Below, piece after piece: positions 6,510 through 21,720 of a stretch of 33,060 nucleotides of DNA; position 1 is the first letter of the stretch; each line of letters starts with the position of its first letter. Under the pieces are notes generated by a model that was not told the origin of the DNA, made no database searches, and was given only the letters and a program-made list of their open reading frames with translations. This DNA comes from Nitrospinota bacterium (lineage in GTDB: Bacteria; JADFOP01). A program made the translations under genes and the position numbers. The stretch lies in NCBI GenBank assembly GCA_022562795.1, contig JADFOP010000022.1:1-33060 (forward strand). Direction: 5' to 3'.

Positions 6510-7804
6510 TTTCTCGCTACACTCGGCCCGCCATGGGGGAGCTATGGGCCCCCCAGAAGAAGTTCGAGCTCTGGCTGGAGATAGAGCTGCTCGCCTGTGA
6601 GGCGATGGCCGGGTTGGACCTGGTTCCGAAGGATGCCGCCCAGCGCCTTCGGGCAAAAGCGAGCTTCGATATCGGACGGATCGAAGCCATCGAGGCCGAG
6701 GTGCACCACGATGTCGTCGCCTTCATCACCGCGGTGGGGGAGACCGTCGGAGAGGACGCGCGCTGGCTCCATCTAGGCCTCACATCCTCAGATATATTGG
6801 ACACCTCTCTGGCCGTCCTGCTCAAGGAGGCTTCTCAGCTCATTCTGGCAGGCCTTGAGGAGTTCCTGGCAGTCCTCAAGCGGCGGGCCTATGAGTTCCA
6901 AGATGTACCCATGGTGGGGCGCACTCACGGCGTCCATGCCGAACCGACGACCTTCGGGTTGAAACTCGCTATCTGGTGGGACGAGATACGACGGCGCCGG
7001 GACCGGCTCGAGAGCGCCGCCGAGGGTGTGGCGGTAGGAAAGCTCTCAGGGGCTGTAGGCACATTCGCCCACTGCCCACCTGAGGTTGAGGCCCATGTAT
7101 GCGACCGGCTAGGCATAAAGCCCGCACCGGCCTCGAGCCAGGTAGTGCAGAGGGACCGACACGCCGATTTCCACGCCGCGCTTTCTTTGCTCGCTACGAG
7201 CATCGAGAAGATCGCCTTGGAAGTTCGCCACCTCCAGCGGACCGAAGTGCTTGAAGTGGAGGAGTACTTTTCTCCTGGCCAGAAAGGCTCTTCGGCCATG
7301 CCCCACAAGCGCAACCCAATAATCGCCGAGCGGTTGTGCGGCCTTTCCCGCGTGATACGGGGCAATCTCCACGCGGCGCTTGAGAACGTGCCGCTCTGGC
7401 ACGAGCGCGATATCACTCACTCCTCGGCCGAGCGCATCATTATGCCCGACAGCACGATTCTCGCTGACTACATGGTGGCCAAAGCCACAGACCTTATCGA
7501 TCGCCTTATCGTCTACCCCGACCGCATGCGGGAGAACCTGGGGCGGACGAAGGGCCTGCTCGCCTCCCAAAGCCTCCTGGTTGCTTTGGCTCAGGCGGGC
7601 CTCGAACGTGGGGAGGCCTATAGCCTCGTCCAGGACCACGCGATGCGGGCGTGGCGAGGGGAGGTCGAATTCAAGGAGGCCGTAATGGCCGACCCAGCCG
7701 TAACGAAGCACCTGAGCCGGGAGGTCGTCGAAAGGTGTTTCGATCCAGCCTTCCTTCTTCGCAACGTTAAAGCAATTTTCGAGCGCGTTTTCACCCAGGA
7801 CTAG
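6506..7804 (+). CDS. purB: Adenylosuccinate lyase
   Basis: The enzyme removes fumarate from SAICAR and from adenylosuccinate in purine synthesis. The 432-residue length fits the Bacillus/Thermotoga-type family. The N-terminus, ISRYTRPAMGELW, is the expected family start. This supports the GTG at 6506, which overlaps the previous stop and has a GGAG in the upstream coding end. H141 in GRTHGVHAEP and the signature GSSAMPHKRNP at 261-271, with its catalytic serine loop, are intact. It opens a purine block that runs to purF. The short C-terminal domain indicates the compact form, not the longer enterobacterial one. Confidence 0.97.
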   Translation: MISRYTRPAMGELWAPQKKFELWLEIELLACEAMAGLDLVPKDAAQRLRAKASFDIGRIEAIEAEVHHDVVAFITAVGETVGEDARWLHLGLTSSDILDTSLAVLLKEASQLILAGLEEFLAVLKRRAYEFQDVPMVGRTHGVHAEPTTFGLKLAIWWDEIRRRRDRLESAAEGVAVGKLSGAVGTFAHCPPEVEAHVCDRLGIKPAPASSQVVQRDRHADFHAALSLLATSIEKIALEVRHLQRTEVLEVEEYFSPGQKGSSAMPHKRNPIIAERLCGLSRVIRGNLHAALENVPLWHERDITHSSAERIIMPDSTILADYMVAKATDLIDRLIVYPDRMRENLGRTKGLLASQSLLVALAQAGLERGEAYSLVQDHAMRAWRGEVEFKEAVMADPAVTKHLSREVVERCFDPAFLLRNVKAIFERVFTQD

Positions 7805-8547: not shown

Positions 8548-8790
8548 TTGCCTATCGCGAAGGTTTATGTGACGCTTAAAAAAGGTGTCCTCGACCCTCA
8601 GGGCCAAACCGTCCAGAGCGCGTTGGAAACCCTTGGGTATGAAGTTGAGGAAGTCCGCATGGGCAAATACCTGGAGCTGACCCTCGCCGATGCGCCCCCA
8701 GAAGAGCTGGAGGCGTATGTCATGGAGATGTGCGAGAAGCTCCTTGCCAATCCCGTGATTGAAGATTATACATTTCAGATAGATTCTTAG
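8548..8790 (+). CDS. purS: Phosphoribosylformylglycinamidine synthase subunit PurS
   Basis: This 80-residue protein is the small structural subunit that joins PurQ and PurL in the three-part FGAM synthase. It shows the family pattern: AKVYVTLKKGVLDPQGQTVQ at the start, then VRMGKYLEL and a C-terminal NPVIEDYTF. The start is TTG at 8548, fixed by the family N-terminus and a GGGAGG ribosome site at 8536-8541, 6 bases away. Presence of PurS means this organism uses the split PurS/PurQ/PurL enzyme rather than the large fused PurL of gammaproteobacteria. The three genes are adjacent and in order. Confidence 0.96.
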   Translation: MPIAKVYVTLKKGVLDPQGQTVQSALETLGYEVEEVRMGKYLELTLADAPPEELEAYVMEMCEKLLANPVIEDYTFQIDS

Positions 8791-18912: not shown

Positions 18913-18941
18913 ATCCTAAATTCCAACACCTAATCTGTCAA
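18913..18941 (-). promoter_or_regulatory. Sigma70-type promoter of the rplU operon
   Basis: On the minus strand, TTGACA (18936-18941) and TAGGAT (18913-18918) are separated by exactly 17 bases. The -35 is a perfect match and the -10 matches 4 of 6. Predicted transcription starts near 18906, giving a leader of about 36 bases before the rplU GTG. That leader is too short for the long L21 autoregulatory leader seen in some bacteria. The promoter lies 27 bases from the displaced nfi fragment. Confidence 0.7.
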
Positions 18942-18968: not shown

Positions 18969-19037
18969 CTAAAACTTTGAAAGACGATCAGCCAAGAGCA
19001 GGGGCTCGGGGTGTTTAGCGCGCCTGCAGCAGGCCAA
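18969..19037 (-). pseudogene. Isolated 3' end of an endonuclease V gene (divergent copy)
   Basis: Read on the minus strand these 69 bases encode LACCRRAKHPEPLLLAD followed by RLSKF and a stop. The intact nfi at 21055-21720 ends LACCLRTKHPEPLRLAD then RLSKF. By my base-by-base count, 54 of 69 bases match. Only three of 22 residues differ, while nine codons differ silently. Upstream the frame no longer resembles nfi and has no start, so this is a fragment. The silent-site pattern says it diverged while still in a working gene, then arrived or was stranded here. It ends 27 bases before the rplU promoter. Confidence 0.75.
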
Positions 19038-19177
19038 CTTGCTTGTGACATCAGATGGGATAGTTTTGAAAGGACAAGGCCGGTTTCTACTTCCTGGGTA
19101 CCTGGGTAGAAGTATCGGATGTGGCGAATGGCGTCCTATGTTCAGATATCAGAACGTGGTAAGGTGATATCCTGTTA
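19038..19177. other. Non-coding leader with tandem 8-mer and inverted repeat before the orphan membrane gene
   Basis: CCTGGGTA occurs twice head to tail at 19093-19108, inside a weak TTCTAC/GTAGAA stem. GATATCA (19145-19151) and TGATATC (19165-19171) form a 7-base inverted repeat with a 13-base loop. It ends 6 bases before the ATG at 19178, and the only ribosome-site candidate (AAGGTG, 19161-19166) runs into its second arm. I see no convincing promoter or gene. Confidence 0.4.
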
Positions 19178-19885
19178 ATGGTCAATTCGGCTACATTCTG
19201 TATAATTTCAACCTTTTTTTGTACCGCTTGTGTCATTGCGGGCGTATACGTAGCCGCTAGCAAACTCACCCCGGAGTTACGCAGTCGTCGTACTGTGGAA
19301 GTAACGGTCCTGGCTATTCTGTGGTTAATCTTTACCGCACTGCTTGGGCTCTCAGGATTTCTTGGAAACTTTTCTGGCATGCCCCCACGGTTAATGCTCT
19401 TCTTGCTCTTAGTGCTTGGAACAAGCACCCTCTTCGTTTTTTCCCGATGGGGAACCCTTCTCCGCGACGGATTGAGCTTGAGCACCCTCGTAGCATTTCA
19501 CTTGTTCCGCGTGTTGCCGGAAACACTCCTCTTCCTTGCCTATAAAGAAGGGATAGCTCCTGTTCAGATGTCATTTGTTGGTCATAACTTTGACATCTAT
19601 TCCGCACTCGCTGCGCCTGGTGCGGCTTTTCTAATTAAAAAGGGTGATAATAAATTCTGGGCGAGAGCGGTTGCCTGGGGTTGGAACGTTATTGGTCTCT
19701 GTTTGCTTTTCGGCGTTTTGACGGTTGCCGTTCTATCGACACCCACGCCGTTTCGGATGTATGACAACGAACCTGCAAATACTTTTGTCACTACATTTCC
19801 GTATGTTTGGCTACCTGGCGTACTTGTTTTCCTGGCGTTCGGGGGACACGTCCTCGTCGTTCGCAAATTATTGAGGGAGAAATAA
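19178..19885 (+). CDS. Orphan multi-pass membrane protein, function unknown
   Basis: This 235-residue very hydrophobic protein has about six or seven predicted membrane spans, at roughly 6-27, 43-66, 70-90, 100-116, 145-155, 165-187 and 207-226. The N-terminus has no cleavable signal. I recognise no family motif or catalytic residues. The DNA is visibly less GC-rich, with more T/A-ending codons than rplU or nfi beside it, suggesting acquisition by transfer. It is the only gene between the divergent nfi fragment (18969-19037) and the near-identical nfi tail repeat (20087-20145). It runs opposite to both neighbouring operons. The ATG is preceded by a weak AAGGTG. Confidence 0.65.
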   Translation: MVNSATFCIISTFFCTACVIAGVYVAASKLTPELRSRRTVEVTVLAILWLIFTALLGLSGFLGNFSGMPPRLMLFLLLVLGTSTLFVFSRWGTLLRDGLSLSTLVAFHLFRVLPETLLFLAYKEGIAPVQMSFVGHNFDIYSALAAPGAAFLIKKGDNKFWARAVAWGWNVIGLCLLFGVLTVAVLSTPTPFRMYDNEPANTFVTTFPYVWLPGVLVFLAFGGHVLVVRKLLREK

Positions 19886-20015
19886 CGGGAGAGCTCAAGA
19901 TAAGATTGAGGCGTATAGCCCAACACCAGCGGAAATCATGAAGGTCTACAATAAAACTCAATTACCTATATCACGATGAGAAATCAACTATCCCACCGCC
20001 TATCCGAGGGACACC

Positions 20016-20076
20016 TTTCGCGAAAATTCGCCTGAGGCGGGCTTGTGGTGTCGGGGGCTGTCCGCCTCAGGCGGAC
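20016..20076. repeat. Cluster of short perfect palindromes
   Basis: Three palindromes lie close together: TTTCGCGAAA (20016-20025), CGCCTGAGGCG (20029-20039) and GTCCGCCTCAGGCGGAC (20060-20076). The last has 8-base arms around a single C. A near twin, TCCGCCTGAGGCGGA, is at 21013-21027. Both large palindromes sit just outside the repeated nfi tail, on the side downstream of nfi. They resemble REP-type extragenic palindromes, or could be rho-independent stems lacking a T-run. Confidence 0.7.
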
Positions 20077-20086
20077 CTTAGGCGGA

Positions 20087-20145
20087 ACTACCCCTTATTT
20101 CAGATCTAGAACTTTGAAAGCCGGTCGGCCAGGCGGAGGGGCTCG
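20087..20145 (-). repeat. Near-identical copy of the nfi 3' end plus 19 downstream bases
   Basis: Fifty-nine bases match 21036-21094 with a single difference (C in place of T within the Lys-Phe codons next to the stop). The unit covers the last 12 codons of nfi, the stop, and about 20 bases beyond it (ACTACCCCTTATTTCAGAT on the plus strand). The rest of nfi is absent. An 85-codon frame running through it (20106-20363) reads nfi sequence only in its last 13 codons and is not considered a gene. Orientation is the same as the intact gene. Confidence 0.9.
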
Positions 20146-20160
20146 TTTTCCTGAACGAAA

Positions 20161-20254
20161 GGGCCCCTGAAAGGGCCAGGGGCTCTCGATCCGGGGCATC
20201 GAGAAGTGCCTAGAGACCTACGCCCGAAATAGTGGCGTGGCGGACGGCCGCCAC
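20161..20254. ncRNA. Possible structured RNA: three perfect hairpins in a gene-free stretch
   Basis: The stretch 20146-20469 has no supported gene. It holds GCCCCTG/CAGGGGC (20163-20183, extendable to 20161-20185 with one GU pair). Abutting it is TCTCGAT/ATCGAGA (20184-20204). Further on is GTGGCGG-ACGG-CCGCCAC (20237-20254, 7-base stem and 4-base loop). Stems are symmetric on the DNA, so the strand is undecided. I compared it mentally with 6S, tmRNA, SRP RNA and RNase P RNA and found no clear match. A transcriptional terminator cluster is an alternative, but no T-run follows. Confidence 0.3.
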
Positions 20255-20469
20255 CGGCTGCCTGGGAGCGATATTGTAGCGTGGCCTCAGCGACGGTGCC
20301 GTTCGGACTTGGAACAGCTCTGCCATGGCTTCGGTAGGGGTCGCGAGCGTGTAACGTCCGCATATGGCTTAAGTTTACAGGAACGGTAACAGGAAGGCTA
20401 GGAAGACCACCACGGCCCCTTTCCTAAATCGCTCGCACCTTCTCGCCCGACGGCATTCATCGCGGCATC

Positions 20470-20865
20470 CTACAAGCTGAAGAGAAACTTCCAGAGGATC
20501 TGTCCCCATGACAGGCCCATTACGCGCTCGGGATTGTGGACGAAAAAATATTCTAACTTGAAAACACCGTAGATTCCGATCACAGAGGTCACATTTCGGA
20601 GGGGTGTAAAAAGGGGAGCCAATAAGTCCCCTTTTCGGACCTTATCAATAACGTCAATGAAGGATTCTCCCATAAGTCTGACAAGAACATTGAGCCCGAC
20701 CATGATAATCAGTGTTAATAAAACCCACCAAATTCCACTATGCCCTCGTAGTTTATTGATGAGCGGAGAGAATAAAAGGATGACCATAAAAAATACAATG
20801 ATGGAAAAGGCAAAGTTGCAGAAAGCCTCGACTAACGTTGTCATGCTATCCCAAAAAGCCCTCAT
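20470..20865 (-). CDS. Orphan membrane protein, function unknown
   Basis: The frame is open from ATG 20973, but the first 36 codons look non-genic. The ATG at 20865 has GGAGGA 6 bases upstream, so I start there (131 residues). Beginning MRAFWDSMTTLVEAF, it has membrane spans at about 14-34 and 45-65. A shorter hydrophobic region follows near 90-105, and a C-terminus rich in Phe and Leu. No motif is recognised. It is the only gene between the two 59-base nfi tail repeats, on the nfi strand, and is less GC-rich than its neighbours. Confidence 0.55.
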   Translation of the reverse strand: MRAFWDSMTTLVEAFCNFAFSIIVFFMVILLFSPLINKLRGHSGIWWVLLTLIIMVGLNVLVRLMGESFIDVIDKVRKGDLLAPLFTPLRNVTSVIGIYGVFKLEYFFVHNPERVMGLSWGQILWKFLFSL

Positions 20866-20968
20866 CATTCTTCCTCCAATGAACATCGGGACGATGTTAT
20901 CTTGCTGCAGAAACTGGGCTCTAGGCCTTTGCTCGAACAGGATAAGCCTATCTTTATTATACTCCGGA

Positions 20969-21049
20969 CTCATCCAGGGCGACCCCGACCTACCCTTAAT
21001 TTGGGTAGCTCATCCGCCTGAGGCGGACAACCCCGACTACCCCTTATTT
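20969..21049. repeat. Degenerate tandem unit and palindrome downstream of nfi
   Basis: Two related units lie head to tail on the plus strand: CTCATCC...ACCCCGACCTACCCTTAATTT (20969-21002) and CTCATCC...AACCCCGACTACCCCTTATTT (21009-21049). The second also contains palindrome TCCGCCTGAGGCGGA (21013-21027). The second unit runs directly into the stop of nfi. The repetition hints at repeated insertion or slippage at one site. Confidence 0.55.
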
Positions 21050-21094
21050 CAGATCTAGAATTTTGAAAGCCGGTCGGCCAGGCGGAGGGGCTCG
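21036..21094 (-). repeat. nfi 3' end repeat, copy in the intact gene
   Basis: This is the reference copy of the 59-base unit also present at 20087-20145 (58 of 59 identical). It spans the last 12 codons and stop of the intact nfi plus 19 bases beyond. Together with the divergent copy at 18969-19037 it forms a series of three nfi ends in the same orientation. Confidence 0.9.
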
Positions 21095-21720
21095 GGGTGT
21101 TTCGTACGAAGGCAGCAGGCCAGGACGATCTCGACGGCTCGCTTGAGCGAGACCTTGTGGCCCACCGAGACGTAAAGGGGCTTGCAGCGCTCCCGCGTGG
21201 TTACGGCTGCGCCCAGGATCTCTTCTCCATCGGCATAGGTCAAAAGCTCCCAGGCGCCTTTCTTCGGCCCTGGGGTGGAGGAGACCTTCCCGTAGAGCTT
21301 CGACTTGGCGCACCCGATCGTCGGCCGCCCTATCCAGAGACCAAGGTGGCAGGCGAGGCCAAACCGCCTGGGGTGAGCGAAGCCCTGGCCATCTACCAGC
21401 AGGCAGTCGATGGGATGGGTTAGATGGGATAAGGCCGTGAGCGCGACCGGCGCCTCTCGAAAGCTGAGCAGGCCGGGGACGTACGGAAACCGGACCGGCG
21501 CCTCGGCCACTCTCTCCTCTATAACCTCCATGCCAGGCCAGCGGCAGACCACCGCGGCCGCCCGGGCCTTCCCATCTTTGTAAGCGACGTCAACGCCGGT
21601 GACCCAGCGGAGGAGCCTGACGGCTCCCCGTGTTACGACATCCGCGCGTAGCCGCTTTTGCACCGTAACAGCCTCTTTCGGCTCCAGCGGCCACTCGTGG
21701 AGCGGTCGTTTCTTCCCCAT
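21055..21720 (-). CDS. nfi: Endonuclease V (deoxyinosine 3' endonuclease)
   Basis: The enzyme nicks DNA one base 3' of deoxyinosine to start repair of deaminated adenine. The protein has 221 residues. Metal-binding and catalytic residues are present: D44 (TGVDVAY), E89 (LSFREAP), D110 and H116 (VDGQGFAHPRR), and a late H188 (VGHKVS). The frame is open to 22008, but ATG 21720 has AAGGT upstream and gives the family N-terminus. Its last codons recur at 20087-20145 and, divergently, at 18969-19037. The gene is divergent from the lipoprotein gene at 21923. Confidence 0.94.
   Translation of the reverse strand: MGKKRPLHEWPLEPKEAVTVQKRLRADVVTRGAVRLLRWVTGVDVAYKDGKARAAAVVCRWPGMEVIEERVAEAPVRFPYVPGLLSFREAPVALTALSHLTHPIDCLLVDGQGFAHPRRFGLACHLGLWIGRPTIGCAKSKLYGKVSSTPGPKKGAWELLTYADGEEILGAAVTTRERCKPLYVSVGHKVSLKRAVEIVLACCLRTKHPEPLRLADRLSKF

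Follow-up and report, generated by a model that had tools for sequence, protein, structure and literature searches.

Three nfi 3' ends in a Nitrospinota genome may record imprecise uptake of DNA from relatives

Introduction

How does the end of a housekeeping repair gene come to stand three times, in one orientation, on a single contig? This arrangement is found in a Nitrospinota genome (here G000), in the window that we analysed, a whole stretch of 33,060 nucleotides. The gene is nfi, which encodes endonuclease V (21055..21720, minus strand; Pfam PF04493, E=8e-68) and has 82% amino acid identity to its counterpart in the congener G001; its frame stays open further upstream, and the start is probably near 21720. 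An earlier note, made from the sequence of the window, had described the three nfi ends and proposed that elements integrate at the 3' end of the gene and rebuild it. We confirm the three ends, including a middle copy that matches the intact end at 58 of 59 bases, and we find that DNA was indeed inserted and the gene end rebuilt, but the evidence speaks against a site-specific element with nfi as its target.

Three nfi tails in one orientation

The tail copies lie at 21055-21123, 20087-20145 and 18969-19037, all on the minus strand, with start-to-start spacings of 1137 and 949 bases. The first is the 3' end and stop of the intact gene, in frame with the rest of it, and is probably the most recently acquired tail. 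The second, a relic of 59 bp that corresponds to 21036-21094, is made up of 40 coding bases and 19 past the stop. The third and most distal copy is 80% identical to the intact tail; 15 of 69 bases differ (54 are the same), in a coding-like pattern with nine of the 15 at third codon positions, and the longest exact run shared by the two is 17 bases. Because these differences fall mainly at third positions, the intact and distal tails come from two diverged lineages, rather than one being a decayed local duplicate of the other. The matches are far above chance (E = 2e-24 for the middle copy, 5e-11 for the distal one), and a genome search found no fourth copy, the tails being confined to this contig (C22). 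Only CGAGCCCCT-like stretches are common to all copies, and the outer limits differ from copy to copy.

Duplication at a terminator, which had been raised as an alternative, can be rejected, since what is repeated is nfi coding sequence, has diverged in a coding-like way and is confined to the three nfi copies; no copies lie far from nfi in the genome, as those of a generic terminator element would. A terminator-like hairpin, a match to a consensus only, stands just upstream of the middle tail (20162..20183, minus strand). The middle and intact copies each adjoin dispersed REP-like repeats, a point that the earlier note had missed. Directly behind nfi is a repeat (GGGTAGTCGGGG..., TCCGCCTGAGGCGGA; 20977..21037, minus strand) with many intergenic copies in the genome, and 19963..20093 (no strand assigned) holds a palindromic TTTCACGAT... 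family and a TCCGCC/GGCGGA family, copies of which occur at many places in G000 and G001.

The empty site and the inserted DNA

The phylum is represented in the collection by three genomes only, and G001, an independently assembled Nitrospinae single-cell genome, is the sole close relative there. In G001, nfi is followed directly by the rplU promoter, the very arrangement that had been named as the empty site to look for. The present lineage has thus gained an insertion of low-GC DNA, about 2.1 kb in length. The right-hand neighbour of the empty site is rplU, encoding ribosomal protein L21 (18469..18870, minus strand; Pfam PF00829); its promoter (TTGACA-17-TAGGAT; 18913..18941, minus strand) aligns with the same promoter in G001, and DNA identity between the genomes is 78% over 18942-17520. 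The distal tail occupies the position of the nfi end in G001, that is, the ancestral one, against the rplU promoter.

The two intervals between the tails have a G+C content of 49-51%, versus 60-65% in nfi and rplU-obg, and each holds one orphan membrane-protein gene, as the earlier note had observed of both features. The gene orf235 (19178..19885, plus strand), which would be the cargo of the older insertion, encodes a protein with six hydrophobic peaks; a distant homologue (33%, E=1.7e-21) lies beside an RlpA-like gene in an unrelated genome. The product of orf167 (20470..20973, minus strand), the presumed cargo of the younger insertion, has two hydrophobic segments and one weak PHROG match, to a family of unknown function. 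Both genes are absent from G001. Neither gave anything significant in Pfam, NCBIfam, PHROGs, PADLOC, PDB sequences or Rfam, and no significant match to defence, phage or toxin families marks them as effector or immunity cargo. A viral, phage or plasmid origin was dropped, as the insert had no DNA or protein match among such sequences.

The second interval also contains a 5'-terminal fragment of a SRAP (YedK/HMCES-type) gene, overlooked in the first reading (20239..20370, minus strand; 132 bp, start codon lost). It is 81% identical to the genome's own intact gene on contig C54 and 78% to that of G001, with differences by codon position of 3/3/17 (17 of 23 at the third). By its sequence, this fragment is the head of another lineage's gene.

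Similar scars behind other genes

A survey of about 92% of the genome, read as stretches, found scars comparable to those at nfi in two places, behind recX and behind a gene for an MFS transporter; further genes gave weaker cases. The scars at nfi measure 40 and 69 bp, that at recX 191 bp and that at the MFS gene 89 bp; outside nfi the range is 58 to 191 bp. All intergenic relics that were found locally have the same orientation as the gene end they repeat. Relic and intact sequence differ at third positions in 13 of 17 cases at recX and 14 of 19 at the MFS gene; pooled with nfi, the count is 36/51 (p = 6e-8), an excess which indicates that the tails belonged to functioning genes while they diverged, each in its own lineage. 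The middle nfi copy has a single difference from the intact tail, and the excess thus rests on the distal nfi, recX and MFS relics. Several candidates were set aside: L130 represents tRNA-Pro genes, L186 represents ABC-ATPase paralogues, and L138, like several further repeats of this kind, belongs to the dispersed MITE- or REP-like families.

The congener adds further context. The MFS-tail relic is also present in G001, at the orthologous place and adjoining promoter-like sequence. For an ABC-transporter gene with a 58-bp scrap, comparison with G001 shows that the gene separating tail from relic is native and that the relic alone is extra. The G000 and G001 versions of a two-gene unit resembling DUF2182/DUF1326 (on contig C4) share 90% identity and stand in different places, compared with about 73-78% identity at the nfi locus, which indicates that DNA moves between the two lineages. 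Altogether, scars behind other genes make the locus look like a product of repeated imprecise uptake of relatives' DNA, not of a mobile element that targets nfi.

A model for the locus

We consider it rather likely that the locus was built by congener DNA recombining in a series of one-sided homologous events, through homology-facilitated illegitimate recombination or insertion-duplication. Starting from the ancestral order nfi - rplU, DNA from a relative, with that relative's nfi tail and whatever followed it, would have paired with the resident nfi. A single crossover inside the gene would attach the incoming tail, and the other end of the incoming DNA would join, without homology, within the resident tail. 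The product would be a complete nfi ending in a foreign tail, followed by the DNA with orf235 and then, stranded at the rplU promoter, the final 69 bases of the resident gene. A second round, with DNA carrying a near-identical tail, orf167 and the SRAP-gene scrap, would have left the middle relic. The same product could arise from a linear fragment (homology-facilitated illegitimate recombination) or from a small circle by a single crossover, and those products would be viable and persist that rebuild nfi while keeping the rplU promoter.

The scars show three features expected of one-sided recombination. A direct repeat of recipient sequence surrounds the added DNA at nfi, recX and the MFS gene; the third-position excess points to copies from different lineages for the distal nfi, recX and MFS relics; and the breakpoints vary, as the scar lengths at the three genes show, without a shared core site. 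We count in its favour the recurrence at unrelated genes with varied scar lengths, the empty site and the ancestral position of the distal tail, as well as the third-position pattern of the SRAP fragment, the MFS-tail relic at the orthologous place in G001 and the two-gene unit as a sign of DNA moving between the lineages. Some observations count against it. The collections searched yielded no donor genome in which orf167 or orf235 stands behind nfi. The scar rate in G001 is unproven, with no local tail scars in 372 kb where about 1.5 would be expected. The ABC-transporter scar, with its native intervening gene, is a poor fit. Finally, the near identity of the middle and intact tails means that the second step needs a donor close to the first, or local copying.

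Alternative explanations

Could small non-autonomous elements have integrated site-specifically at the nfi 3' end, using a recombinase in trans and accreting in tandem? Such elements would account for a diverged tail that rebuilds the gene end, for same-orientation direct repeats around low-GC cargo, for the empty site in G001 and for the 19 bases past the stop that the middle and intact copies have in common. However, the tail block begins at 69 bp in the distal copy and at 40 bp in the middle one, with unlike flanks, unrelated genes carry similar scars, and phage, viral or plasmid matches are lacking. No recombinase is visible between or beside the nfi copies, as had been noted at the outset, and the suggestion that one might be linked to nfi tails elsewhere found no support among tyrosine recombinases: a genome-wide PF00589 search gave only three, on contigs C6, C9 and C53, and the tails are only on C22. 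Nor was other cargo bounded by nfi tails found in collections with a single close relative: in other genomes, 51 nfi loci showed no convincing repeat of the tail downstream, on which ground nfi as a general att site was also discarded. We therefore hold site-specific integration to be unlikely. A strain-mosaic assembly, in which the nfi end of one lineage follows that of another because contigs from two co-existing lineages were linked, is a minor risk of similarly small size. Contig ends overlap other contigs at 91-97% identity and there are exact 127-bp contig-end overlaps, which point to mixed strains and to an assembly graph with k=127, and the C4 repeat begins exactly at a contig end. Against this, the junctions have no N runs (the 1.98 Mb hold 5), the 17 exact bases shared by the intact and distal tails are too few for graph confusion, the insert is not the other lineage's downstream region, and the orthologous MFS relic recurs in the independent single-cell genome.

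Two further explanations concern how the relics were left. A whole foreign nfi might have been inserted beside the resident gene, which then shrank to a 69-bp stub. The stub does show coding-like divergence and adjoins a promoter, as the MFS relics adjoin promoter-like sequence, but its edges are clean and no further nfi scrap lies between the copies. Moreover, the middle copy is nearly unmutated yet has only 40 coding bases, and gradual decay cannot account for the lost remainder. We regard this displacement and decay as improbable, and give no better chance to the idea that the stub was retained only because it abuts the rplU promoter. Least probable is that the middle copy arose when a RAYT-type Y1 transposase duplicated the REP behind nfi and took the neighbouring gene tail along. 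The homology between middle and intact copies stops at a GTAG box beside REP-like DNA, and G000 has three Y1 transposases elsewhere in the genome, with none found in G001; however, the distal copy has no REP, the recX and MFS scars are left unexplained, and the known RAYT products are REPs, not gene tails.

Implications

If one-sided recombination of congener DNA did build the locus, stranded gene tails would be a readable record of imprecise gene acquisition, showing where foreign DNA joined by one-sided homology, which lineage it came from and that the flanking genes survived. Displacement arrays, known from toxin loci, would then have a counterpart at housekeeping genes of a marine lineage that is uncultivated. 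It would also be a warning that an insert bounded by gene-tail repeats is not in itself evidence of an integrase. More speculatively, and in our estimate with little chance of being right, gene tails could serve as private RecA-dependent docking sites, where circles of about 1 kb (one gene plus tail) integrate by single crossover, accrete in tandem, as at nfi, and pop out, a recombinase-free cassette system that moves genes between congeners. Contig C17 begins with a three-copy array, which would perhaps reflect the same accretion.

Comparison with known systems

Integrative elements that insert at the 3' ends of protein genes (ICE, IME and prophages) rebuild the gene end from incoming DNA and leave a direct repeat at the far side. 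The nfi locus differs in having no integrase or fixed crossover point, and different genes are hit in one genome. Integron gene-cassette arrays are made of units of about 1 kb with one small gene each and short bounding repeats; here, in contrast, no integrase is found at the array, and the repeats are nfi coding sequence, the locus-specific tail of the neighbouring gene. Short-patch double illegitimate recombination could yield isolated gene scraps such as those of 132 bp (SRAP) and 58 bp (ABC transporter).

Homology-facilitated illegitimate recombination is described in transformable Acinetobacter, Pseudomonas stutzeri and Streptococcus pneumoniae (cited in PMC5361080 and PMC3784515) and is known from laboratory transformations. 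It resembles the proposed events in combining one homologous anchor with one non-homologous junction, so that foreign DNA is added and recipient border sequence can be duplicated, whereas at nfi the event is read from scars in the genome. The closest precedent is in Vibrio cholerae, whose T6SS clusters carry orphan immunity-gene arrays ascribed to sequential displacement, for which homology-facilitated illegitimate recombination has been proposed (PMC5361080); orphan 3' regions of Rhs genes are comparable. At nfi, the anchor encodes a housekeeping repair enzyme that hardly changes, the cargo has no toxin/immunity signature, with no evident selection for variable ends, and a single genome bears scars behind several unrelated genes. 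In both cases, successive insertions behind a conserved anchor shifted the former 3' end and its neighbour downstream, with no integration site or recombinase.

Stranded nfi tails and the insert between them

The earlier note described three same-orientation tails of nfi (endonuclease V, PF04493), with one membrane gene per interval in DNA of lower G+C than the flanks, and this description holds. The intact gene, on the minus strand, ends at 21055, and two further tails in its orientation lie at 20087-20145 (mid; 58 of 59 bases identical to 21036-21094) and 18969-19037 (distal; 54 of 69 identical). A search of the genome (G000) found no further copy. Hydrophobic products are encoded by orf235 (plus strand), between the distal and mid tails, and orf167 (minus strand), between the mid and intact tails; G+C is 49-51% in both intervals versus 60-65% in the flanks. 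Family searches with both gave no significant match; orf235 has a remote homologue in another genome and represents a genuine membrane family that has yet to be described. On the minus strand, the region of the SRAP fragment (see below) and the mid tail share an 85-codon open reading frame (20106-20363), which is probably fortuitous.

The empty site envisaged in that note, with nfi directly before the rplU promoter, is found in the Nitrospinae single-cell genome G001, where 69 bases and no insert separate the two; the comparison rests on this one congener, the only close relative in the collections. In the window, the rplU promoter (18941-18913) is preceded by the distal tail. Because this is the same promoter that follows nfi in G001, the distal tail marks the ancestral position of the nfi end, separated from the working end by about 2.1 kb. 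In G001, nfi itself is broken in two by what looks like a frameshift at eight consecutive G (stretch L022, about 1497-1510), either a sequencing error or the mark of a pseudogene.

The mid copy (40 coding bases plus 19 past the stop) repeats the intact tail together with its 3' flank almost exactly and is a recent duplicate. The distal tail differs from the intact one at 15 of 69 bases, 9 of them at third codon positions, and 9 of the 12 changed codons are synonymous. Distances to G001 (20 differences for the distal tail, 14 for the intact) about equal the distance between the two. Judged by sequence, the distal and intact copies are tails of separate lineages, and simple local duplication followed by decay is ruled out for this pair by that divergence.

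The insert also holds, at 20239-20370, the first 43 codons of an SRAP-type gene without its start codon. Identity is 81% with the genome's own intact copy, which lies on contig C54, and 78% with the G001 gene; as in the nfi tails, third codon positions hold most of the differences (3/3/17 by position). Given this scrap, the insert is a mosaic in which cargo genes stand beside dispersed repeats and scraps of genes from another lineage. REP-like repeats (GTAG plus hairpin) are abundant in G000, at 20977-21037 and on many contigs. Three Y1 (RAYT-type) transposases occur in G000; none was found in G001.

Comparable scars at other genes

The idea that nfi is a specific target was not borne out, as comparable scars lie behind recX and an MFS transporter gene in G000. 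These came from a survey for low-copy local direct repeats in stretches covering ∼1.98 Mb of the 2.15-Mb genome. The recX tail relic (191 bp, 91%; L189, G000:C16:20001-38224, 7427-7617 and 8589-8779) lies ∼1-1.2 kb behind recX, a single HTH gene separating the two, and the MFS relic (89 bp, 82%; L225, G000:C46, 4201-4289 and 10309-10397) lies 6 kb behind its gene. Differences by codon position are 4/0/13 for recX and 3/2/14 for MFS; pooled with nfi, 36 of 51 fall at third positions (p = 6e-8). Both are clear parallels to the nfi scar.

Other cases are weaker or less clear: 58 bp of an ABC transporter tail, 61 bp from the interior of a flippase-like gene, and a lipoprotein gene head, or 5' end (83 bp, 100%; L215, G000:C35, 4949-5031 and 8516-8598), whose copies enclose ∼3.4 kb with glycosyltransferase-like genes. 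Two more cases of this kind lie at contig starts: C4 begins within a 140-bp gene-tail repeat, and C17 starts with three same-orientation copies at ∼1.1-kb spacing (L190, 221-284, 1271-1408, and 2403-2541). The C17 array takes in a join to a comM fragment, and one of its units has an HU gene, with a copy of that region (86%) on contig C2. Contig ends in G000 overlap other contigs at 91-97% identity (C6/C64, C1/C65, C21/C58, and C43/C67), and some end overlaps are exact over 127 bp (C19/C10 and C42/C19); the assembly, made at k=127, thus contains heterogeneous strains, and we count this strain mixture as a limit on the findings.

G001 carries an MFS-tail relic at the orthologous place, beside the same downstream gene (L283, G001:C233, 5668-5773), so that the relic is conserved in two species, while its intact MFS gene sits at another place and is followed by partly different DNA. 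Since the relic recurs in an independent genome, at least one such scar is shown to be biological and old. The promoter-like TTGACT...TATAAG of the next gene starts within the relic's stop codon; this suggests that stubs last by being joined to a neighbor's promoter region, a position that the distal nfi tail shares. In C4, the tail copies enclose a DUF2182/DUF1326-like gene pair (L128, 1-2351), which is matched at 90% identity by a pair at a different place in G001 (L140, G001:C553). DNA identity in the nfi-rplU neighborhood is far lower, at 73-78%. The HTH gene found behind recX also has a homologue (79%) at a different place in G001. DNA therefore moves between these lineages.

One-sided recombination as the probable mechanism

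One-sided homologous recombination, in which incoming DNA would rebuild the gene end and strand the old tail, accounts for the rebuilt end, the stranded tail, the direct orientation, and the varied breakpoints and genes, as well as for the absence of a recombinase and for divergence at the level of congeners. We infer that the distal relic came first and the mid relic second, and the donor and entry route are likewise our reconstruction. The closest known likeness is at Vibrio T6SS loci, where homology-facilitated illegitimate recombination has been proposed as the source of orphan genes in series and of displaced 3' ends (PMC5361080).
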